DNA from: Bifidobacterium asteroides
GTDB taxonomy: Bacteria > Actinomycetota > Actinomycetes > Actinomycetales > Bifidobacteriaceae
Length of the DNA stretch: 64,000 nucleotides
Reading direction: 5' to 3'
NCBI RefSeq assembly: GCF_003202755.1
Contig: NZ_QGLK01000004.1
Coordinates: 434,001 to 498,000, forward strand
The number at the start of each line of letters is the position of its first letter. Position 1 is the stretch's first letter. The notes beneath the pieces were generated by a model that did not search any database, was not told the DNA's origin, and worked only from the letters and a program-made list of their open reading frames with translations. This document shows, one piece after another, positions 4,677 to 14,588 of this stretch. A program made the translations under genes and the position numbers.

Positions 4677-5924
4677 TTATTGCTCAATGAAGCGGGATTC
4701 GACACAGCTCTGGAAGCGGACAAGCGAGAGAATGACAGCGGCCAGCAGAGCGATTATCAGCATGCCCATGAAACTGCCGGTTACCGGATCCAGTCCAAAC
4801 GCTGATGAGAAAGCCTTGAAAGTCCAGGTGGATGCCGTAAAACCAAAGCTGGTGGTAGCCGAGAAGACCCCCATGACCAAGGGATAGCGTCTGTGCGGAG
4901 TCAGGTTGGACAGGAGGAAGGGGCAGGTGGCCATATTGATGGCACTGCCCGAACCAACCAAGAAGGCCGATAGGCAGACCAGCGGGAAGGAGCGGGTGGT
5001 CAGGAAGAGCAGGGCGCCCAGGGCCATCAGCAGGAAGGCGACCGGAATCGTCCATTGCCGGCAGACCCGCTTGATGCCGTTGATACTAAGCCCGATCACG
5101 ACCGAGGAACCCGTGTTGAACATCAAGGCCACCCCTGCTGCACTGGTGCCGCCCAAACCGTACTTGGCTATGTAGACTGCGAGCTTGTTGTACAGGACCG
5201 CGACCAGGAAAATGCTCAGAAAACCGATGAGAATGCAAGAAATGGTAGCCCACCAGCATTGTCTGCCCTTCTGCGAGGGGGATGTTTGAGACTCTGTGGC
5301 CTTTTCCGACTCCTCCTCGACTGCACCGACTCCGGGGACCATGAAGACGACCAAAACCAAGGCAGGCAAGGCCAGGAAATAGAGCCAATAGTTGTGCAGC
5401 CACCCTCCCTTGGCCAGGACACCACCCATGGCAAGGACCAGCATGGAAGAGCCGTCCTGAACAGCCAGGACCAGCCCCATCAGCGCCGCCAACTGCTTCC
5501 CGCGGAAGAACCTGGCCGACAGGCTCGGAAGAACTGTAGTGGCGATGCCCACGCCGAATCCGACAACCAAGGCGAACAAGAGCAGCTGGCTTACACTGCT
5601 ATGCACCAAAAGGGGCATCAAGCCGCCCAGGGCGACACACAGACAACTGATACAGGCAGCGGTTCTGAAACTCATTCTGGTCAAGAGCTGACCAAATAAA
5701 AGGGCCGAAACTATGGCCGCCGAAGAGCCAATGGAGACCACCGATTCAACGGTGGAGGGATCAGCGCGAGGAAAAGATGCCTGAATGGCGGCCACGGAAG
5801 GAGAGATGATGGAGTCAAACCGCGACATGATAGCCAAGGCCATGATTCCGACCAGAACCCCAAGGTTCCGTCTGGTCAATATCCCTGTGTCCTTGGACTT
5901 AGACGCGCACGGGTCCGGTTCCAC
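4677..5924 (-). CDS. MFS permease of unknown substrate
   Basis: This 415-residue major facilitator has 12 predicted membrane helices, a central cytoplasmic loop rich in Glu, Ser and Lys near residues 205-230, and MFS-like repeats in each half (FGQLLTRMSFRTAA after helix 2). The start is a GTG at 5924 with GGGAGG eight bases upstream. No substrate signature was recognised. It ends just after the oppositely oriented glycosylase gene, so the two are convergent. The next gene upstream on the same strand is another permease, 57 bp away, so the pair may be co-transcribed. Confidence 0.8.
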   Translation of the reverse strand: MEPDPCASKSKDTGILTRRNLGVLVGIMALAIMSRFDSIISPSVAAIQASFPRADPSTVESVVSIGSSAAIVSALLFGQLLTRMSFRTAACISCLCVALGGLMPLLVHSSVSQLLLFALVVGFGVGIATTVLPSLSARFFRGKQLAALMGLVLAVQDGSSMLVLAMGGVLAKGGWLHNYWLYFLALPALVLVVFMVPGVGAVEEESEKATESQTSPSQKGRQCWWATISCILIGFLSIFLVAVLYNKLAVYIAKYGLGGTSAAGVALMFNTGSSVVIGLSINGIKRVCRQWTIPVAFLLMALGALLFLTTRSFPLVCLSAFLVGSGSAINMATCPFLLSNLTPHRRYPLVMGVFSATTSFGFTASTWTFKAFSSAFGLDPVTGSFMGMLIIALLAAVILSLVRFQSCVESRFIEQ

Positions 5925-5980
5925 CGTTGCTGCCTCCCTCTCAATGTCAGCGGCACCATTCCTGGTTGATGGTGGGTAGT

Positions 5981-7162
5981 CTACTCCAGCAGCAGGGCCA
6001 TGCCAACCAACACGACGAGGAAGAGCAGATTAAAAGCAGTATAGATTTTCAGGTACTCACCTTTCTTGCTCGGATACTGCTTGACTACAGCTTTGTAGGA
6101 GATCAGCGACGCCATTGAAGCGACCAGGGTTCCGAGCCCGCCCAGGTTGGTGCCCAGAATAATTGAGCGCCAGGCTGTCGAAAAACCTGAGACCAGGAGT
6201 GCTGTGGGCACATTGCTGATGACCTGGCTGCACAGGACCGAGGTAATCAAAGGGTGGATATTGACCAGGCCGCTGACCAGGTTATAAAACTGGGGAATCC
6301 TCCTGGCATTGCCTATGAAAATGAAGAAAGCCACGAAGGTCAGCAGCAGTCCCCAGTCCACATGCAGAAAGACCCGCCTGTCGCAGATCAGAAAGGTCAC
6401 AACCACCACCAGGACCATGGTCCACTGGGGAATCAGCTTGGCCACACCAAGCAGGCAGACAAGAAAGAGAAGAAGGTAGATGGCGATGCGCCATCCGCTG
6501 GACCGTTGCATCTCCTTGACCTGAGGCTGTATCCCCTCCTCCCTGGGCGCTAGTATGCTGTGACGAATCTCTTGTGCATCCATGCCCTCGAACTTGTCCA
6601 AATGCTGATTCCTGAAAGCGAACCAGCAGCACAGGAAGAGCATCAGGGCCGCCACCAGAGCGTAGGGCGCCATAAGGAGGAGGAACTCCCCAGTGGGCAT
6701 CTCGGAGCGGGCCTTGAGGTATAAGTTGTGAGCATTGCCAATCGGGGTCAGCATGCTGCCCACATTGGCGCCCAGGGTCATCAGGGTGACGATCAGCAGG
6801 GCATGGCTTTCCAGACCGGCCATGATGAGCACAGCAATAGCAAAGGGTACGAAGGTCACCAGGGCTACATCATTCGTGATGAACATACTGGAGAAGAAAG
6901 GCAGCGAAACCAGAACCAAGGCCAGACCGCGCACCGAGCGGACACGGCTCAAAAGACTGGCCCCAATGGCATGAAAGACCCCGATGCGCTGAAAGCCGCA
7001 GACCACCATCATCAAGGAACCCAACTGGGTGAGGGTATTGACGTGGATGTAGCCCAAATACTGTCGGTCTGGAGGAATGAGGATGCAGGATACGAGAGCG
7101 ACGACTGCAGCGACGACCAGGACGGTTTCGTTTTTCAGCAGTCCGATCACCCGATGTTGCAT
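5981..7162 (-). CDS. SLC13/ArsB-type anion permease
   Basis: This 393-residue polytopic protein has about 11 membrane helices. The motif SSMFITNDVALVTFVPF and the later NVGSMLTPIGNAHNLYL match the paired hairpin signatures of the ion transporter superfamily (DASS/SLC13, ArsB, NhaD). Such proteins move dicarboxylates, citrate, sulfate or arsenite; the substrate here is unknown. I chose ATG at 7162 over the GTG at 7168 because GGAGG lies five bases before it. It is followed by the MFS permease on the same strand. The 400 bp upstream contain a strong hairpin that isolates it from the nucleoside cluster. Confidence 0.8.
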   Translation of the reverse strand: MQHRVIGLLKNETVLVVAAVVALVSCILIPPDRQYLGYIHVNTLTQLGSLMMVVCGFQRIGVFHAIGASLLSRVRSVRGLALVLVSLPFFSSMFITNDVALVTFVPFAIAVLIMAGLESHALLIVTLMTLGANVGSMLTPIGNAHNLYLKARSEMPTGEFLLLMAPYALVAALMLFLCCWFAFRNQHLDKFEGMDAQEIRHSILAPREEGIQPQVKEMQRSSGWRIAIYLLLFLVCLLGVAKLIPQWTMVLVVVVTFLICDRRVFLHVDWGLLLTFVAFFIFIGNARRIPQFYNLVSGLVNIHPLITSVLCSQVISNVPTALLVSGFSTAWRSIILGTNLGGLGTLVASMASLISYKAVVKQYPSKKGEYLKIYTAFNLLFLVVLVGMALLLE

Positions 7163-7339
7163 GGTCACCTCCGGCGAACGAATTCCTCACTTAGTTTACG
7201 CGCCCGCCCCCGGCTTACTGGACCTTCCCATGCGCTATTTTCCGCTCCTGAGCCTATGTCGGGGCACTCGTGACTTACTGGCTGCTAGCCTGCCTGGCCC
7301 CGACTTTCGACTCTTGTCGGATAGGCATAAAATATGGAA

Positions 7340-7568: not shown

Positions 7569-8981
7569 CTATTGGACCTCATCCTGCTTGGGAATGAGGA
7601 ACGAGCAAAGGAATGCAAGAACGAGAAGAACAGCAGAACCAATCATGGAGGAGACATAGCCCGCCTGCGCACCGGATGAACCAGCCACAAGGTTCATTAT
7701 GGCGTACAGAGCTGCGTAGCTCAGTCCGGCTCCTAGATTGAATCCGCCGGAATTCAGTCCCGGAAGATACCCGGTGTTGTCAGCTGGTGAAAGCACCACG
7801 CCAAGTCCGTTTAGCATGATATTAACCGTTCCCGCATATGAAACACCTAGGACCAGAGACATCACCACCAGAGACCAGACGCTTGGTGACAGACAGACGT
7901 AAATGCCGAAAATCACACCTACTATGCTCACTAGCTGACCCGCACGGAGTACCTTGTGGTATCCATATTTTGATGCCAGTATTCCAGCAACAGGTCCAAA
8001 AGCCAGACCGATGAGCGCATAGGGAGTCAGAGTTGCAAACGAAACCACGCTGGCACTCATTCCGGCACCAGCTTTGGAATCCTGGGCCAGGGCAGGTACA
8101 ACTCCATTCATGATTGCAAATACACCAACCATGGTGGTCAGAGTGGTGAGCAAAAGCCCCCAAGTCCGCCGCTGCTTCAGATAAGTTGTCGTCACCATCG
8201 GAGCTTTGCTCCTCTTCTCCGTATTCCAGAAGACCACGAAGAACAGCGCAGCCACTACCAATTCAATAAGCACCATAAGCCAGTTGGCCGCAGCGAGCTT
8301 CTCGGCCTCGTTGATGGCGAGATAGGCGCAAACGAATGCAATGCAGAGGAATACCACACCAGCCCAATCCATGCGGGGTGTCTGTGCGGCATGACTTTCC
8401 TGGGCAAAAGCGGCAACCAGTATGATAGCCAGCACGGCAACAGCAACCATGAACCAGAATACTGAACGGAAGCCAAAAGTCCCTGCCAGCCACCCGCCCA
8501 GTATGGCATCAACGCCCCCGATACCGCCATTTACGGCGGTAAGAATTGACATGAGCCTGGCATACCTTGCATCTTCTGTTACCTGCGCGTGCAGCATAAT
8601 CAAAGTCATGGGGACAACGGGACCTGCAACCCCCTGAATGACTCGCCCAATCATGAGCACGAGCACGTTGGGCGCAAAAGCCGACACAACACAACCAATG
8701 GCAGTCAGAACCAGAATGCCCAAAAGCACTTTCTTACGACCGACCAAGTCACCCAGCCTAGGAAGGAAGAGCGAAAAGACAGCGCAAGAGGTGAAGAAAA
8801 CCGTCTGAGAAAGCCCGATTTGAGAGCTTGTAGTATGCAGCTCATGCTCCATAGTCGTCAACGCGGGAGAAAGCATGGAAGCGTTGAGCTGGAAAGCAAA
8901 GATAGCGGCCATAAGAGCGGTCATCAGGGCAACAATCGATTTGCCACCCTCGTCGAGAGTCTTGGATGATTCTTTAGTCAT
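7569..8981 (-). CDS. MFS transporter of the nucleoside cluster (14-helix DHA2-like)
   Basis: This 470-residue major facilitator has about 14 predicted helices, the size and spacing of the DHA2 type. It shows the loop motif RLGDLVGRKKVLL after helix 2 and a helix-4/5 motif around RVIQGVAGPVVP. It begins three bases after the nucleoside hydrolase stop, with AGGATGAACG before the ATG, so the two are translationally linked. From that position I infer uptake of the nucleoside-like substrate, although DHA2 members are often exporters of drugs or metabolites. It is the last gene of the cluster. Confidence 0.8.
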   Translation of the reverse strand: MTKESSKTLDEGGKSIVALMTALMAAIFAFQLNASMLSPALTTMEHELHTTSSQIGLSQTVFFTSCAVFSLFLPRLGDLVGRKKVLLGILVLTAIGCVVSAFAPNVLVLMIGRVIQGVAGPVVPMTLIMLHAQVTEDARYARLMSILTAVNGGIGGVDAILGGWLAGTFGFRSVFWFMVAVAVLAIILVAAFAQESHAAQTPRMDWAGVVFLCIAFVCAYLAINEAEKLAAANWLMVLIELVVAALFFVVFWNTEKRSKAPMVTTTYLKQRRTWGLLLTTLTTMVGVFAIMNGVVPALAQDSKAGAGMSASVVSFATLTPYALIGLAFGPVAGILASKYGYHKVLRAGQLVSIVGVIFGIYVCLSPSVWSLVVMSLVLGVSYAGTVNIMLNGLGVVLSPADNTGYLPGLNSGGFNLGAGLSYAALYAIMNLVAGSSGAQAGYVSSMIGSAVLLVLAFLCSFLIPKQDEVQ

Positions 8982-8984
8982 CGT

Positions 8985-9926
8985 TCATCCTATCTTTTCG
9001 ATGGCATCAATAATCAGGTTCCAGAAACCATCGAAGTCCAGTTTCACGGCAACCTGAGTATGGCAATCCTCAGGGCTGGGCTCCGGACCACGCAGATCCG
9101 CCACGGTCATTCCCGTCGTCAACTCACCCCTCAGCTCGATGTCAACAGGGCATCGACGAGTCTTGACGATATTTGGATCAATCAAATACGCAATGGTGCA
9201 GGGGTCATGGACAGGAGGGTCGACAAACGCTTGGTTGTCTTTGTATGTCTTCCTGAAGAAATCCATGAGTCCACTGACGAAATGGGCCAGGTCGGTTCCA
9301 ACACCTTCTATGCGCTTCTGAACCTCTGGTGTGCAAAGGGCCTGGTGGGTTAAATCCAAACCGACCATAGTGACCGGCCAAGGTTCATTGAAAACGATAT
9401 GTGCAGCCTCCGGGTCCACTTTAATATTGAACTCGGCAACAGCACTCCAATTACCGACATGATAGCCACCGCCCATAAGGACGACTTCCTTGACCCGTTC
9501 GACAATTCCCGGCTCCTTACGAGCAGCCATTGCTATGTTGGTCAGCGGGCCAGTAGGGACCAAAGTTATAGTGCCTGGTTCGTTCTTCATGATCGTGTCG
9601 ATGATCCAGTCAACTGCATGACCGGCATCCAGCGGACGGGTCGGTTCTGGCAGTGTGACACCATCCAGGCCTGTTTCACCATGAATGGAGGCAGCAACTT
9701 CCTGCGGGCGAACCAGGGGTCTGTCACAACCAGCATGCACAGGCACATCGTTTGCATGAGCCATTTCAAGCACAGCCCTGGCATTATATGTCACCTTATC
9801 AAGGCTTTGATTGCCACCTACCGTGGTGACGCCCAGAAGATCAATGGCCTGACTGCCAACAGCCAAGAGAATGGCCACGGCATCGTCATGACCCGGGTCA
9901 GAATCCAAAATAACTTTCCGCTTCAT
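8985..9926 (-). CDS. Inosine-uridine type nucleoside hydrolase
   Basis: This 313-residue protein is a full-length IUNH-family N-ribohydrolase. The calcium-binding motif DSDPGHDDA lies at residues 8-16. The mid-protein VLMGGGYHVGNWSAVAEFN and the late HDPCTIAYL motifs are also intact. It hydrolyses the N-glycosidic bond of ribonucleosides to ribose and base in the cytoplasm. Base specificity cannot be read from sequence. The gene has GGAGA seven bases before its ATG. It lies 38 bp after the iron alcohol dehydrogenase gene and 3 bp before the MFS gene, placing it in an operon with a sugar kinase and a TrpF-like protein. Confidence 0.92.
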   Translation of the reverse strand: MKRKVILDSDPGHDDAVAILLAVGSQAIDLLGVTTVGGNQSLDKVTYNARAVLEMAHANDVPVHAGCDRPLVRPQEVAASIHGETGLDGVTLPEPTRPLDAGHAVDWIIDTIMKNEPGTITLVPTGPLTNIAMAARKEPGIVERVKEVVLMGGGYHVGNWSAVAEFNIKVDPEAAHIVFNEPWPVTMVGLDLTHQALCTPEVQKRIEGVGTDLAHFVSGLMDFFRKTYKDNQAFVDPPVHDPCTIAYLIDPNIVKTRRCPVDIELRGELTTGMTVADLRGPEPSPEDCHTQVAVKLDFDGFWNLIIDAIEKIG

Positions 9927-9964
9927 AAGCGTTCTCCGTTCTTTGTTTACTTCATAATGATCAT

Positions 9965-11122
9965 TTACCGAGTTCCAAAACCTTCCAAGAGATCGTGGGC
10001 TGCTGCCTCATCAACCGTACGGGGGGTATTATCGGCAAATCGCTCATTGGCAACTGCCGAGGCATTGCCCAGCAGTTCAGAATGATCAATTTGGTAGGTA
10101 TCGAATGGATGCATTCCAAGTATGTTATCCCGAAAGTCTTTGAAAGCTCGCACAGCCAGGACCGTCGTCTGCTCCTGAGGTGCGGATTCCGGATATACAG
10201 CCCCTAGAATCTGACCGATCTCACGTACTTTCTTAGGGCGAACCGGACCCACAAACTCCAAGACTGAAGGGAGGGCGTAAGCCACTGCTTCGCCATGGAC
10301 GATATGATAGCGGGAACCGAGCACATGGGCGATGGAATGACCGACGATCGTACCTGTATTATTCAGCATCCAACCTGCCAGGTTCGCGGCAACCATAACC
10401 CTTCCTCTAGCCTCTATGTCATTGCCGTCATGCACAGCCCGTGGCAGGTATTGGTACAGAAGATACATAACTTTTTCGCAAATAGCATCAGTCATTGGAC
10501 TTGATAGACGGGATAGATACCCTTCTGCTGCATGACCAAAAGCATCAAGGCCGCAGGCGATGGTCATTGCGGGAGGCAAAGTCTGAGTTAGCTCAGGATT
10601 GAGCACGGCATATTCACTGACAGCAGGATCAGCCAAAACAGTCATTTTCGTCTTCGACGATTCATCAGTAACGACAAGGGCATTAGACATTTCGCTACCA
10701 GTCCCCGCAGTCGTAGGAACACTGATCTGTCCGCGGCAAGGCGAGATCGACTTGGATGGATCAGTGTAATCCAGAATGTCTCCTCCATTAGTTCTGACGA
10801 TGTTGACTCCTCGAGCCACATCCATCGAGCTGCCACCGCCAATGGCAATCAAACTATCTGCATTGTGCTGTTTGAAAGCCAGAAAAGCATCGTTGACTAT
10901 TCCGGCAGCAGGATCAGGACCAACGCTGTTAAAGACTGAAACCGCGATCCCTGATGAGCGGAGCAAATCAAGAGCCTTGACCACCAAAGGCATCGTCGAT
11001 ACAAAATGGTCAGTTACCACCAAAGGCCGTTTATAAGATTCGGTCTGTAGTATCTCTTTTAAGGTTTCGCCCAAATCATGAGTGGAAAGAACCTTTACAT
11101 GCTGCAACATCTTGTACTGCAT
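9965..11122 (-). CDS. Iron-containing alcohol dehydrogenase
   Basis: This 385-residue group III (iron) dehydrogenase has a GGGSSMD nucleotide-binding loop near residues 87-93. Metal ligands appear in GLDAFGHAAEGYLS (Asp, His) and in GHSIAHVLGSRYHIVHGEA (His residues). The longer open frame starts at 11167, but I place the start at 11122: the upstream gene stops two bases before this ATG and its tail carries the GGAGG. Family members reduce aldehydes or ketones, or oxidise polyols, with NAD(P)H. Here the substrate is presumably a product of the preceding TrpF-like and kinase steps; the reaction is unknown. Confidence 0.88.
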   Translation of the reverse strand: MQYKMLQHVKVLSTHDLGETLKEILQTESYKRPLVVTDHFVSTMPLVVKALDLLRSSGIAVSVFNSVGPDPAAGIVNDAFLAFKQHNADSLIAIGGGSSMDVARGVNIVRTNGGDILDYTDPSKSISPCRGQISVPTTAGTGSEMSNALVVTDESSKTKMTVLADPAVSEYAVLNPELTQTLPPAMTIACGLDAFGHAAEGYLSRLSSPMTDAICEKVMYLLYQYLPRAVHDGNDIEARGRVMVAANLAGWMLNNTGTIVGHSIAHVLGSRYHIVHGEAVAYALPSVLEFVGPVRPKKVREIGQILGAVYPESAPQEQTTVLAVRAFKDFRDNILGMHPFDTYQIDHSELLGNASAVANERFADNTPRTVDEAAAHDLLEGFGTR

Positions 11123-11124
11123 AA

Positions 11125-11820
11125 TCAGCAACCTACCTCCGCAGCCGCCTGGTCGGCCTTCTTGCAAAATTCACGTACCTTGTCAATATCTTTCTGCATA
11201 TATCCATCCGGATACTTGATACTTGTCTTAGTGAGCGAATCCACACCATAGGGTCTACATTTCTTTATAGCCTCTGCCACATTGTCTGGACCAAGTCCTC
11301 CGGCCATGATGACTGGCTTCCCGCATTCCTTGACAATTCGTGCATCGATGTTCCAGTCATGAGTCTGCCCGCTGGCACCTATGCCCGTATCTGGGGCCAG
11401 ACCGGAATCGGTGAGTATGAAATCACAGAAAGCCGCGAGACGCTTGGCCCGCTCAACAGCTGATTCGTCGTCCACCAGAACCGCCTGCATAAGCTTGGTT
11501 TCGGGCGCAGCATTTTTCAGCCGTTCGGCAAAGGTCTTATCCGCTTCATACCCATCACCAGCGATATGAAGGATGTCCGGTTGAATTTCTTTAGCGAGTT
11601 CGATCATCTCATCTGGATCATTGGTCAGCATAATAGCCACAGCTTTTACTCCGCGGTTCCTGCATTCATCAAAAATCTTATGCACTCGATCTAATGGAAC
11701 TCTTTGAGCAGGTACGCCACCGTTCTGCATCGGCACCAATCCAATATGATCGGCACCTGCCTCCATGGTTTTAACGCTCTCGTCATAGTGAATGATGGAA
11801 TAGAGTTGCTTGACTACCAT
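11125..11820 (-). CDS. TrpF-fold protein lacking the catalytic cysteine
   Basis: This 231-residue (beta/alpha)8 protein aligns with phosphoribosylanthranilate isomerase along its length. It has EAGADHIGLVP near residues 20-30, the Asp motif FILTDSG with Asp138 at the catalytic acid position, SGQTHDWNI, and the phosphate-binding AGGLGPDNV near 190. The catalytic Cys of true TrpF (KICG) aligns with Tyr7, fifteen residues before GAD in both cases, so it is unlikely to be tryptophan biosynthetic TrpF. No other trp gene is nearby. Its place between a PfkB kinase and an iron dehydrogenase suggests aldose-ketose or Amadori-type chemistry on a phosphosugar. Start support: AAAGGAG seven bases upstream. 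The reaction is inference. Confidence 0.8.
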   Translation of the reverse strand: MVVKQLYSIIHYDESVKTMEAGADHIGLVPMQNGGVPAQRVPLDRVHKIFDECRNRGVKAVAIMLTNDPDEMIELAKEIQPDILHIAGDGYEADKTFAERLKNAAPETKLMQAVLVDDESAVERAKRLAAFCDFILTDSGLAPDTGIGASGQTHDWNIDARIVKECGKPVIMAGGLGPDNVAEAIKKCRPYGVDSLTKTSIKYPDGYMQKDIDKVREFCKKADQAAAEVGC

Positions 11821-11865
11821 TGTTCTCCTTTACTGACAAACTCGCAGTGTGGTCAAATTCCTTAT

Positions 11866-12840
11866 TCATGCAACCATCAAAGGTGCAGACATCTTCTTAC
11901 GTATCTTTTGCACATCGATATCTGGAACTGCCCTGGTGCATTCCAATGCAATGCTGGAGGCGGCCTGAGCTATACGACCCACCTCGCGTATAGGACGATT
12001 CGGATCGTCGAAGTAGCTCCATGTGATGGCAGCCATTCCCGTGTCACCAGCACCATTGGCAGTAGCTATGGTCGTGGGGTAAGGAGGAACATGAACCATT
12101 TCTTCCGCCCCGGAAGTCCGAGAAGCACACAAAATGCCCTCTACCCCAAGAGATATGTAAACGGTTTTGACTCCTTTGTCCATAAGCCAGGCAGCCCCAT
12201 CTTCGGCTGAAGCGCTGTCGTGTATATCGATTCCGCTTAACTTGCCTGCCTCAATTGCGTTGGGCTTAAGCACACTCATCTTATTAAGAATAGGCAGAAA
12301 ATGATTCGCTTTAATTGTCGAAACCGTATCACCGAAAAGCGGCGAGGTTACGTTATCTCCGATCCACTTCATGGTTTCAGGCGCTAGATTCGCATCCAAA
12401 AGACAAATCGCAGCCCCATTGATAAAATCAAGACGGGCCTTCAGGAATGAAGGCGTAATCTGTTCGCAGATATCCATGTCATTGACCGCTACGAGCATGT
12501 CACCTGTTTCATCAGTAATAAACATGTATGTCGATGATCTGAAATCATCCAGACGCTTTGAGTATTCTAGATGAATGCCGTTCTCTTGACAGTTCCGCTC
12601 CATAACACGTCCATTGGCATCATTGCCATAAACGGTCACTAAGTATGTGGGCACCCCAAGATGGGCTAGTGATTGCGCCATATTCTGCCCGACCCCGCCC
12701 ACCGATAAACTAACCTTACCTGGATTGGAATCACGATCTACGATGGCGGTGTTCGGACGTCCACAAATGTCCATATTCATGCCACCTATAACGACAACAT
12801 ATCGCTCGGTATCGCATGAGGGCTCTGAGAAATCCACCAT
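11866..12840 (-). CDS. PfkB-family sugar/nucleoside kinase (PsuK-like)
   Basis: This 324-residue kinase has the N-terminal PfkB signature VVIGGMNMDICGRPN followed by SVGGVGQNMAQSLAHLG, the pattern seen in pseudouridine kinase relatives. The C-terminal catalytic motif NGAGDTGMA, near residue 262, retains the base Asp. It should phosphorylate the 5-hydroxyl of a ribose-like sugar or a nucleoside. AAGGAGG lies nine bases before the ATG, and a strong promoter with twin palindromes lies 80-110 bp upstream. It is probably the first gene of the catabolic operon 12840 to 7569. Substrate choice between free ribose and an intact nucleoside is unresolved. Confidence 0.85.
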   Translation of the reverse strand: MVDFSEPSCDTERYVVVIGGMNMDICGRPNTAIVDRDSNPGKVSLSVGGVGQNMAQSLAHLGVPTYLVTVYGNDANGRVMERNCQENGIHLEYSKRLDDFRSSTYMFITDETGDMLVAVNDMDICEQITPSFLKARLDFINGAAICLLDANLAPETMKWIGDNVTSPLFGDTVSTIKANHFLPILNKMSVLKPNAIEAGKLSGIDIHDSASAEDGAAWLMDKGVKTVYISLGVEGILCASRTSGAEEMVHVPPYPTTIATANGAGDTGMAAITWSYFDDPNRPIREVGRIAQAASSIALECTRAVPDIDVQKIRKKMSAPLMVA

Positions 12841-12880
12841 TGGAACCAGCCTCCTTGCCAGCAGTTGTGCCGTTCAACAC

Positions 12881-12949
12881 AACTAACAAATGTTTTGTCT
12901 AATAAACAATTGTTAGTTTCATCATAAAGAAGACTTATTGCGCTGTCAA
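12881..12949 (-). promoter_or_regulatory. Near-consensus promoter with overlapping twin-palindrome operator
   Basis: On the minus strand TTGACA (12949-12944) and TATGAT (12926-12921) are separated by exactly 17 bases. The expected transcription start falls around 12914. Here lies the perfect palindrome AACAATTGTT (12905-12914); a near copy AACAAATGTT (12885-12894) begins exactly 20 bp away. Outer arms AACTAACAA (12881-12889) and TTGTTAGTT (12910-12918) also form a perfect inverted repeat. A repressor bound here would block initiation. The winged-helix pseudokinase encoded just upstream is the obvious candidate; this is inference. Confidence 0.75.
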
Positions 12950-13049
12950 ATAGTTCAAAGTCTGATATTGATTTGCTGCCAAGAGAGCAGTCTAAGCTTG
13001 CTTCGTCAAAAGAAATGGTGGTCATCAATTCAAGAGTGGCTAATCAGAC

Positions 13050-14147
13050 TCATGCAAAAAGAGAATGACGACGAGCTCTCAACGTTGCTGAACTAAAACG
13101 CGGATTAACTGACTGAATGCAGTCCATGGCCATAGAAGCCGCGGCATATGCGGTTTCCGCACAGTCCCGGTAGTCCATTTTCTTGCTATGAGACCAAAGA
13201 AGAGCGGACAAGGCAGCCGAAGCTGCACCGTTATTATGTCTGCCCTTGGTCGTTTGACCATCACGACAAAATACGTAGTTACTTCCCTCGCTGTATAGAT
13301 TGCCGACTCCATCTATAAGCAGATACACACGGTGAACTCCCGCTTTGTGCAGGCGACGAGCGCAGGCCAGGCTGCTCTGTTTATCGGAAGCCTCGGTGCC
13401 TGTCAGCAATTGTGTCTCAGCACGGCTAAGCACCAAAGTATCTATTCTGTTCAGCACGGTTAGCAGACGCGAAGCTTTATTGACAGAAACAACTCGAGCA
13501 TAAATCGGACCCGAATAATGGTCACATACCCAGGCAATCGAAGCAGCAGTTAAGCTGGAATCGATAACAACTGCTTTTGCATTGGCAATGACATGCGCAC
13601 GCTCGTGCAAAAAAGTCGGGCTGATAAGTTCGCTGCTGGCCATATCATCCAACCCCACCAGCGGATCTCCGTCAGGACCACTTACTGAAAGATAGGTGGA
13701 AGTCGGAGTATTGCTCAGTTGCTGACAGTATGTTATGTCAAGACCATTGGCCATGGCATCTTTCTTGAAGAACGCCCCGTTGTGGTCGTCTCCATAGACC
13801 GACAAGAGATAATTCTTTACGCCCAAACAGCCTAAATCATACGATATATTACGACCTATGCCACCAGGACTGAACGTGATTTTTCCAACATTCGAGGAAT
13901 GGCTTACTACGGGATTTACTGACATGCCATAAATATCCAAGTTGATTCCGCCTATCACTGCAACATAGGTAGGCGGTGAAACTATATACCCTTTGCCAAG
14001 TAAGTATCCTTTCTTCACGAGGTTGGATATGTGCGCAGCAACACCGGAACGAGTGATGCCGCAAAGATGCGCCAGTTCGTTCTGGCTAATCATTGGATTC
14101 TGTCTGATCAATCCCAATATCTGTTCTTCGCGATTGGTCACCGCCAT
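13050..14147 (-). CDS. Winged-helix regulator fused to a PfkB pseudokinase domain
   Basis: This 365-residue protein has an N-terminal winged helix (about 1-58: EEQILGLIRQNPMISQNELA then a recognition helix ITRSGVAAHISNLVKKG). It is followed by a PsuK-like PfkB domain (VAVIGGINLDIYG near 62-74, FSPGGIGRNISYDLGCLG). The signature GAGD near the C-terminus reads GAAS (residues 307-310), so the catalytic Asp is Ser310 and phosphoryl transfer is probably lost. I infer a transcription factor that senses a sugar or nucleoside through the dead kinase pocket and controls the operon that starts at 12840. Its own start has GAGGTGAGG upstream. An active kinase with an unusual base cannot be fully excluded. 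Confidence 0.82.
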   Translation of the reverse strand: MAVTNREEQILGLIRQNPMISQNELAHLCGITRSGVAAHISNLVKKGYLLGKGYIVSPPTYVAVIGGINLDIYGMSVNPVVSHSSNVGKITFSPGGIGRNISYDLGCLGVKNYLLSVYGDDHNGAFFKKDAMANGLDITYCQQLSNTPTSTYLSVSGPDGDPLVGLDDMASSELISPTFLHERAHVIANAKAVVIDSSLTAASIAWVCDHYSGPIYARVVSVNKASRLLTVLNRIDTLVLSRAETQLLTGTEASDKQSSLACARRLHKAGVHRVYLLIDGVGNLYSEGSNYVFCRDGQTTKGRHNNGAASAALSALLWSHSKKMDYRDCAETAYAAASMAMDCIQSVNPRFSSATLRARRHSLFA

Positions 14148-14588
14148 AGATGCCTCACCTCACTTGCTCAGACAAATCCGATTCACAATCTAGCATCATT
14201 TTGAACTACAACCGGTTTACTTCTCGACCTGATAAGGCGTATTTGTTTGCCAAATCGAAGTAATCCGCAGTACAAGATGAGAACGGTCAGCCCTTATATG
14301 AGGTCTTGAGCATGTCTGCTCAAACAATTCCCAAAGGTTTCAACTCATGCCATAGGGACAACGGCCATTGCAGTCAGAAGCCAAGGCTGCCGAACTTTCT
14401 TGCAGACAAGACTTCACCACAACTGCAACTGTTGGTGATCATCCTGATCGAAGAGCATCTATCCGCATCCAAAGCCAAACGGGTCATTGCGATGCAACAA
14501 ACATAGGCAATCGAATACAGTTTCTTGATTTATGCGACGAACCGGCACCGAACCGATGGCAGGAGGGCCGACTGATAGGCTCGAAATC
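14148..14588. other. Divergent intergenic region
   Basis: This 440-bp gap separates the winged-helix regulator (minus) from the MazG-like gene (plus). It holds the Shine-Dalgarno of the regulator (about 14150-14165). I found no other gene, RNA or repeat. Short open frames here have neither start signals nor recognisable products. Confidence 0.4.

Follow-up and report, generated by a model that had tools for sequence, protein, structure and literature searches.

The 64,000-nucleotide stretch of the Bifidobacterium asteroides genome analysed here (the window; contig NZ_QGLK01000004.1, positions 434,001 to 498,000) contains an operon of six genes, which are transcribed in the order regulator, kinase, TrpF-like enzyme, iron-containing alcohol dehydrogenase (Fe-ADH), nucleoside hydrolase and MFS transporter (Table 1). 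The operon looks built for the import and breakdown of RNA nucleosides; these probably include pseudouridine, handled without the enzyme that usually serves this purpose, and part of the chemistry may be new. The intergenic gaps in the order of transcription are 209, 45, 2, 38 and 3 bp. The coordinates confirm the tight spacing (2–45 bp) that a sequence-only reading of the window had described for the five enzyme and transporter genes; the regulator gene does lie upstream, as that reading had it, but is not equally close. The start of the Fe-ADH gene is the ATG at 11122, whereas a mechanical list of open reading frames puts it at 11167, within the TrpF-like gene. The G+C content of the operon is 49.8%, compared to 59.4% in the remainder of the window, which suggests horizontal acquisition.

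Table 1. Genes and predicted operator-like region of the operon, in window coordinates.
Feature	Position	Strand	Assignment
Helix-turn-helix (HTH)/PfkB regulator	13050–14147	minus	Pfam HTH_24 and PfkB
Operator-like region 5' of kinase gene	12881–12918	minus	two TAAACAAATGTTTA-like sites, predicted
PfkB-family kinase	11866–12840	minus	Pfam PfkB 1e-36
TrpF-like (TrpF-fold) enzyme	11125–11820	minus	Pfam PRAI 3e-13, over cut-off
Fe-ADH	9965–11122	minus	Pfam Fe-ADH 2e-35
Nucleoside hydrolase UriH	8985–9926	minus	Pfam IU_nuc_hydro 3e-107; NCBIfam NF052221
MFS transporter UriT	7569–8981	minus	Pfam MFS_1 7e-41; NCBIfam NF052222

The hydrolase scores 548 bits against the NCBIfam UriH model (cut-off 450) and the transporter 647.5 bits against the UriT model (cut-off 600), which identifies them by sequence as a predicted uridine-preferring hydrolase and a predicted uridine transporter. 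The regulator, kinase, TrpF-like protein and Fe-ADH all fall under every NCBIfam cut-off listed.

A pattern-based scan of a genome collection found 24 loci with the TrpF-like gene, at 66–94% identity, in Bifidobacterium, Galliscardovia, many lactobacilli, a few clostridia and one Bacillota metagenome-assembled genome. Of 27 genomes in the window's genus, four match: the window's type of gene occurs in G000, G019 and G005, and G013 has only a 37% relative; G000 has both. The module is present in 11 of 295 Lactobacillales. Among 398 genomes of the clostridial phylum two match, one of them, G418, only partially, at 34%, and to a protein of the Cys type described below. We refer to the window's type of TrpF-like gene with its neighbours as type 1, and compared 39 such loci fetched by their TrpF-like gene, 37 of them distinct (L100 duplicates L024, and L101 duplicates L023). 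The kinase gene lies near the TrpF-like gene in all 39, Fe-ADH in 37, a UriT or CNT nucleoside transporter in 28 (CNT-type in the lactobacillar version), a nucleoside hydrolase in 26, and a YczE-like membrane protein in 21. A regulator that has lost its catalytic Asp occurs in 36 of the 39, this being the valid count; another tally of 38 includes cross-matches to the kinase. Because no hydrolase or transporter gene lies within 6 kb of the regulator, kinase, TrpF-like and Fe-ADH genes in loci L067–L072 (L068 is close to a contig end), these four genes look like the core of the module, with hydrolase and transporter as common companions. The sequence-only reading had proposed a nucleoside-catabolic cluster and had named a failure of its genes to co-occur as the result that would count against it; the counts above show that they do co-occur, in both Bifidobacterium and Firmicutes, and support the proposal. 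We conclude that this is a real, nucleoside-directed operon common to bifidobacteria and lactobacilli, and apparently mobile. On a plasmid of Limosilactobacillus mucosae (L139, 7001–8850), the TrpF-like copy matches residues 34–230 only and the Fe-ADH is annotated in two adjacent pieces; this reads as a decaying copy of the module.

The assignment to pseudouridine comes from the kinase. Its best match in the PDB is the E. coli pseudouridine kinase EcPsuK (7vkp, 2e-50), while the best chain named as a ribokinase matches at 1e-16. In EcPsuK, the ribose of pseudouridine is touched by N14, D16, N45 and G41/V42 and its uracil by Y97, M114, N143, V166, S167 and K170, with D256 as the catalytic residue (PMC9247573). 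We aligned the module kinases with PsuG-linked Lactobacillales kinases and with E. coli PsuK, YeiI and RbsK. All of these contact residues and D256 are identical in the 39 module kinases, that of the window included, and the same contact set is identical in ten out of ten kinases adjoining PsuG. E. coli RbsK differs at V42, Y97, M114, N143, V166, S167 and K170; where ribokinase has Glu143, the module kinases without exception (39/39) retain Asn. The PfkB catalytic motif is GAGD in the window kinase and G[A/T]GD in all 39. Overall identity to EcPsuK is 30–36%, with 43 of its 313 positions invariant; on the assumption, which does not hold, that positions are independent, all seven specific ones would be invariant with a chance of about 3e-7. 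The regulators are members of this PfkB subfamily without the catalytic Asp, and several of their pocket positions vary. That the kinase would read the nucleobase, and its assignment to pseudouridine, are thus well supported predictions. The PsuG-linked kinases also keep GAGD (10/10), and eight of the ten are 368–399 residues long, enough for an N-terminal HTH domain.

The regulator consists of a winged helix and a PfkB-like domain, and is YeiI-like, with Ser at the position of EcPsuK D256. In all 36 module regulators this Asp is lost, to Ser, Ala, Thr or Gly, and most of the pseudouridine pocket is retained. Because the pocket is mostly kept and the catalytic residue gone, the regulators look like nucleoside sensors, and we consider this role probable. 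When up to three mismatches are allowed, a 14-mer, TAAACAAATGTTTA, is found 5' of the kinase gene in 29 of 32 loci, where Markov resampling gives an expectation of 5.7; the count is biased upward by derivation of the motif from the same upstream regions. The window has two such sites 5' of its kinase gene (12903–12916 and 12883–12896), each with three mismatches to the consensus. Beyond the regions used for the derivation, two-mismatch sites lie 54–74 bp 5' of UriH in L063, L064 and L065, where this gene is transcribed separately, and L066 has a single-mismatch site 5' of the CNT gene with which its operon begins. This is moderate evidence that hydrolase and transporter would come under the same regulator.

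In the TrpF-like protein, the catalytic Cys7 of TrpF is replaced by Tyr7, so that the earlier description of a TrpF fold without the Cys was correct, and the general acid and ring-opening residue Asp126 is retained as Asp138. Cys7 is present in four aligned canonical TrpFs and in the five TrpF chains displayed from the PDB, and is Tyr in every aligned type-1 protein. The best score against the NCBIfam TrpF equivalog models is 84.9 bits (cut-off 215), and there is no tryptophan gene context around the gene. In a phylogenetic tree, twelve Tyr7 proteins form one clade (support 99/98) that excludes both Cys-type TrpF and an Ala7 type; the branches of E. coli TrpF, L073 and L138 are flagged as long by the tree tool. 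The alignments contain no active-site Lys of the Schiff-base or PsuG type that is conserved across the family (at K198, relatives have Arg, Phe, Leu or His), and a class I aldolase was rejected for this reason. Matches in the fold library past TrpF (MfnB, PdxJ, ThiE, HPS and RPE) reflect the common barrel only.

The Fe-ADH matches PF00465 and PF25137 over cut-off, and its D-H-H-H residues, which we take to be the metal ligands of the family, align with those of 8zwd. The nearest solved chains are an NAD-dependent methanol dehydrogenase, followed by alcohol, 1,3-propanediol and lactaldehyde enzymes. The Fe-ADH family is known for small aldehydes, and we propose that this member is an aldehyde reductase.

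Tyr-type proteins are also found outside type 1. The window's genome has a second operon (L032, contig C5 441000–458000; 1754–12108), with a Tyr-type TrpF-like gene 35% identical to the first and genes for an ECF transporter, a PfkB protein, two nucleoside hydrolases, a HAD hydrolase, an Fe-ADH of the YqhD/butanol-dehydrogenase group and an MFS protein; a gene for a LacI–ribokinase-like fusion (12345–14270) is divergent from the operon. Operons of this type 2 were also found in L033, L075 and L096, the last from the clostridial class. HAD is absent from L096 and was rejected as a core member, being present in the other three; nothing was drawn from a transporter–hydrolase fusion in L096, where the reading frame crosses a run of N. 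All four type-2 loci contain Fe-ADH. Since the second type is thus also accompanied by an Fe-ADH, of a different subfamily, a carbonyl product of the TrpF-like step fits. With the type-2 gene as query, no type-2 gene was found in 395 Lactobacillales, the 15 matches being, by identity and neighbours, 14 type-1 genes and one canonical TrpF. The LacI–ribokinase-like fusion of L075 (13031–14947), from a lactobacillus, reads AATD where the Bifidobacterium copy in L032 reads GAGD, and its kinase domain may be a dead sensor too.

On rhizobial plasmids (L132, L133 and L135), a Tyr-type gene is found with a kinase and a pyridoxal phosphate enzyme annotated as an aminotransferase; the one from L132, the only one tested, scores best against methionine gamma-lyase, under the cut-off. 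A haloarchaeal plasmid (L134, 7004–9581) has Tyr-type TrpF-like, PfkB and nucleoside hydrolase genes consecutively, beside ABC transport genes. The Tyr-type family probably shares a chemistry on phosphorylated ribosides, and we argue for pseudouridine for the window's type only. Ala7-type genes occur on Corynebacterium and Agrobacterium plasmids (L136, 6992–14261; L137, 6812–14519), with upp and genes for an adenylation-domain protein of the non-ribosomal peptide synthetase type, a tautomerase, a PsuG-family protein and an EamA transporter; this is possibly a C-nucleoside or pigment biosynthesis cluster, which would again link the TrpF fold with PsuG-type chemistry. Two small genomes of the clostridial class (L097 and L098) have a Cys-type TrpF-like protein with no tryptophan or nucleoside gene recognised nearby.

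The gene set, the UriH and UriT assignments, the kinase pocket, the loss of Asp from the regulator, the Cys-to-Tyr change and the common motif are read from the sequences. From these we infer a pathway in which uridine is used via UriH, and pseudouridine via the PsuK-like kinase, the TrpF-like enzyme and Fe-ADH, the last reducing a carbonyl product; we would give this proposal an even chance of being right. UriT, or in lactobacilli the CNT transporter, would import pyrimidine nucleosides derived from RNA, and UriH would hydrolyse uridine-type N-nucleosides to base and ribose. Pseudouridine is abundant among the modified nucleosides of RNA, and is not known to be cleaved by ordinary nucleoside hydrolases or phosphorylases. 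Being a C-nucleoside beyond the reach of the hydrolase, it would be converted by the kinase to pseudouridine 5'-phosphate (PsiMP), on which the Tyr-type TrpF-fold enzyme would act in place of PsuG. The regulator would sense the nucleoside and act at the TAAACAAATGTTTA sites.

TrpF opens the 5-phosphoribosyl ring on an aromatic amine, and then takes the C2' proton with its Cys. In PsiMP the 5-phosphoribosyl group is C-linked to uracil, whose N1-C6=C5 system could push likewise, and Asp138 would open the furanose, just as TrpF opens the ring of its own substrate, an aromatic 5-phosphoriboside. Because the ring-opening Asp is kept and the carbon base is changed from Cys to Tyr, a route that spares the removal of the C2' proton is attractive. 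We infer that the most likely detail would be a vinylogous retro-aldol cut of C2'-C3', for which the atoms balance (C9H13N2O9P = C3H7O6P + C6H6N2O3) and which would give glyceraldehyde 3-phosphate and uracil-5-acetaldehyde; the latter would be reduced by Fe-ADH to 5-(2-hydroxyethyl)uracil and excreted. A Tyr-type TrpF-fold lyase of exactly this kind is a tentative proposal, with the chances clearly against it, and Amadori isomerisation of PsiMP is an alternative, but the TrpF-like step as such is a strong lead for new chemistry. That the kinase acts on a C- or N-nucleoside that is still intact, with TrpF-type chemistry as the next step, had been the second choice of the sequence-only reading and has become the better lead, except that the classic Amadori reaction it invoked sits poorly with the Cys-to-Tyr change.

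The first choice of that reading had been phosphorylation of free ribose followed by isomerisation by the TrpF-like protein. As a second ribose route, the kinase would be a ribokinase, the TrpF-like enzyme would isomerise ribose 5-phosphate and Fe-ADH would handle redox. Nucleoside hydrolases do yield ribose, ribokinase-like kinases lie beside Tyr-type genes in rhizobia and Halostella, and in Lactobacillus sakei LSA0252 (hydrolase), LSA0254 (kinase), LSA0255 (“phosphoribosyl isomerase”), LSA0256_a and LSA0258 (Fe-ADH) are induced by ribose in three of three strains, LSA0259 (nucleoside symporter) in two and LSA0257 in one (PMC3146418). The same text reports a cre site before LSA0254 and cites an earlier suggestion that LSA0254 and LSA0255 serve ribose catabolism; the published site had no match in the loci searched for it. 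This route is weakened by the complete uracil-contact set, with Asn for ribokinase Glu143, in every module kinase, and by RpiA, which 27 of 31 module genomes already have; we consider it unlikely. A role for the TrpF-like protein in filling in for an absent ribose-5-phosphate isomerase is likewise not supported, as RpiA was found in 30 of the 34 genomes searched (the four exceptions, G059, G060, G062 and G765, correspond to the Bacillota records L027, L029, L030 and L028; RpiB was outside this search). Use of ribose via phosphoketolase is also redox-neutral and needs no Fe-ADH. A direct PsuG substitute, in which the TrpF-like enzyme hydrolyses PsiMP to uracil and ribose 5-phosphate and Fe-ADH serves something else, draws on the same kinase pocket and is the simplest one-for-one replacement in an E. 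coli-type locus; TrpF and PsuG both start by opening the phosphoribosyl ring. It leaves unexplained the Fe-ADH of nearly all type-1 and all type-2 loci, and the TrpF-like family has gained no conserved active-site Lys like that of PsuG, so that it is distinctly unlikely. More improbable again is a split of ribose 5-phosphate into glyceraldehyde 3-phosphate and glycolaldehyde, with Fe-ADH forming ethylene glycol, by analogy with a haloarchaeal nucleoside pathway that ends in this product (PMC9700705). Both Fe-ADH types do have small-aldehyde or alcohol enzymes among their nearest solved relatives, but the kinase pocket reads a nucleobase and the TrpF-like family lacks a conserved Schiff-base Lys. 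Finally, the TrpF fold and Pfam family might indicate the organism's own phosphoribosylanthranilate isomerase, placed in a nucleoside operon by chance, as might the lack of any other canonical TrpF in six module genomes that carry indole-3-glycerol phosphate synthase (IGPS). We rejected a role in tryptophan biosynthesis, which the Tyr7 substitution, the missed NCBIfam TrpF models and the conservation of the operon across phyla already contradict to the point where it is hardly credible: 23 of 31 module genomes have no IGPS, canonical TrpF occurs in only two, each time beside IGPS, and the bifidobacterial controls without the module, G001 and G003, have IGPS and neither a canonical nor a TrpF-like gene.

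Several observations weigh against our preferred reading, pseudouridine use via PsiMP. The kinase scores 193.3 bits against the NCBIfam PsuK equivalog PRK09850, whose cut-off is 540, and we therefore call it PsuK-like rather than a PsuK equivalog; its pocket may also come from inheritance within the subfamily. Kinases paired with Tyr-type genes elsewhere lack this pocket (4/4 type-2, 3/3 rhizobial and 1/1 haloarchaeal), and a Mesorhizobium Tyr-type copy (L138) has no kinase in the stretch shown; the Tyr-type enzyme therefore appears not to be tied to pseudouridine alone. Clostridial L027 and L029 have no nearby Fe-ADH, canonical TrpF is missing from six bifidobacterial module genomes that do have IGPS (as it is from the module-free controls G001 and G003), and matches to TAAACAAATGTTTA with two mismatches are scattered elsewhere in some of these A+T-rich loci. 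The L. sakei cluster rises on ribose, which, given the cre site, may be catabolite derepression, and some ribose-growing L. sakei strains have no detected rbsK and keep lsa0254; the authors allow that rbsK merely differs in those strains (PMC3146418). In favour of a replacement for PsuG, which the known bacterial pseudouridine route needs, no PF04227 protein was found in the window's whole genome, hence none in the operon; among the 38 genomes searched there is one, and 33 of 34 type-1 module genomes are without it. We abandoned this absence as positive proof, because only 50 of 325 Lactobacillales have PsuG, which makes it weak evidence. One of the 11 Lactobacillales module genomes, G556, has PsuG as well as the module, with no kinase beside that PsuG. 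PsuG genes without a recognisable adjacent kinase were seen in L106, L122 and L126, and the genome of L106 also has the TrpF-like module.

If the operon does degrade pseudouridine, bifidobacteria and many lactobacilli have a route for it with what may be new chemistry, and a testable function would follow for all of the Tyr-type branch of the TrpF fold. If the retro-aldol cut is true, three carbons of a C-nucleoside would enter glycolysis without PsuG or the pentose phosphate pathway, and Tyr-type relatives elsewhere would treat other 5-phosphoribosides likewise. The analysis also offers a concrete, testable reassignment for genes in nucleoside operons that now carry a phosphoribosylanthranilate isomerase annotation.

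Downstream of the operon, on the same strand, the window has an MFS gene and a CitMHS-family transporter gene (4677–7168). The pair is kept at the same place in L008 and L034, and was not seen in L009–L011 or L026; it could export a product.

The E. coli locus yeiI-nupX-rihB-yeiL-psuT-psuG-psuK, for pseudouridine and pyrimidine nucleoside use, is a parallel to the module. Both have an HTH-PfkB protein, a nucleoside hydrolase, a PsuK-type kinase and, in the lactobacillar version, a CNT-type transporter, whereas the module has a TrpF-fold enzyme and Fe-ADH where E. coli has PsuG, and a regulator without the catalytic Asp. Compared with TrpF itself, the module protein has Tyr for the catalytic Cys and lacks a tryptophan context. 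The Corynebacterium glutamicum operon described in PMC3146418, which consists of the ribokinase, uriT and uriH genes, shares the UriT and UriH equivalogs; in place of its ribokinase, the module has the PsuK-type kinase, the TrpF-like enzyme, Fe-ADH and the HTH-PfkB regulator. The haloarchaeal non-carboxylating pentose bisphosphate pathway resembles our proposal in that nucleosides are broken down with the help of a kinase, an isomerase and an aldehyde reductase, but these steps involve ribose 1-phosphate kinase, ribose 1,5-bisphosphate isomerase, ribulose bisphosphate phosphatase and a FucA-type aldolase, with no TrpF-fold enzyme in the pathway as published (PMC9700705). For bifidobacteria, pyrimidine-nucleoside regulons under LacI-type RbsR regulators have been described, and the section on them does not mention the module gene set (PMC4746261). 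Locus L017 comes from L. oligofermentans, a species that can grow on inosine; its inosine-uridine hydrolase LACOL_0326, which may or may not be the L017 gene, is expressed more highly on glucose and xylose than on ribose (PMC4972977).

Among open-licence PMC texts, we found neither a PsuG-independent pseudouridine route nor a TrpF-like protein in nucleoside use, apart from the mention in L. sakei. There, LSA0252–LSA0260 comprise, by locus number, hydrolase, regulator, kinase, “phosphoribosyl isomerase”, hypothetical proteins, Fe-ADH and symporter, in the same order as L063–L065; the likeness is one of annotation and gene order, and what the cited text offers is expression data and the ribose suggestion, without enzymology. 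The claim of the sequence-only reading that the cluster was undescribed therefore holds in part: it had been glimpsed before in L. sakei, and what is new here is the evidence from the kinase for pseudouridine.

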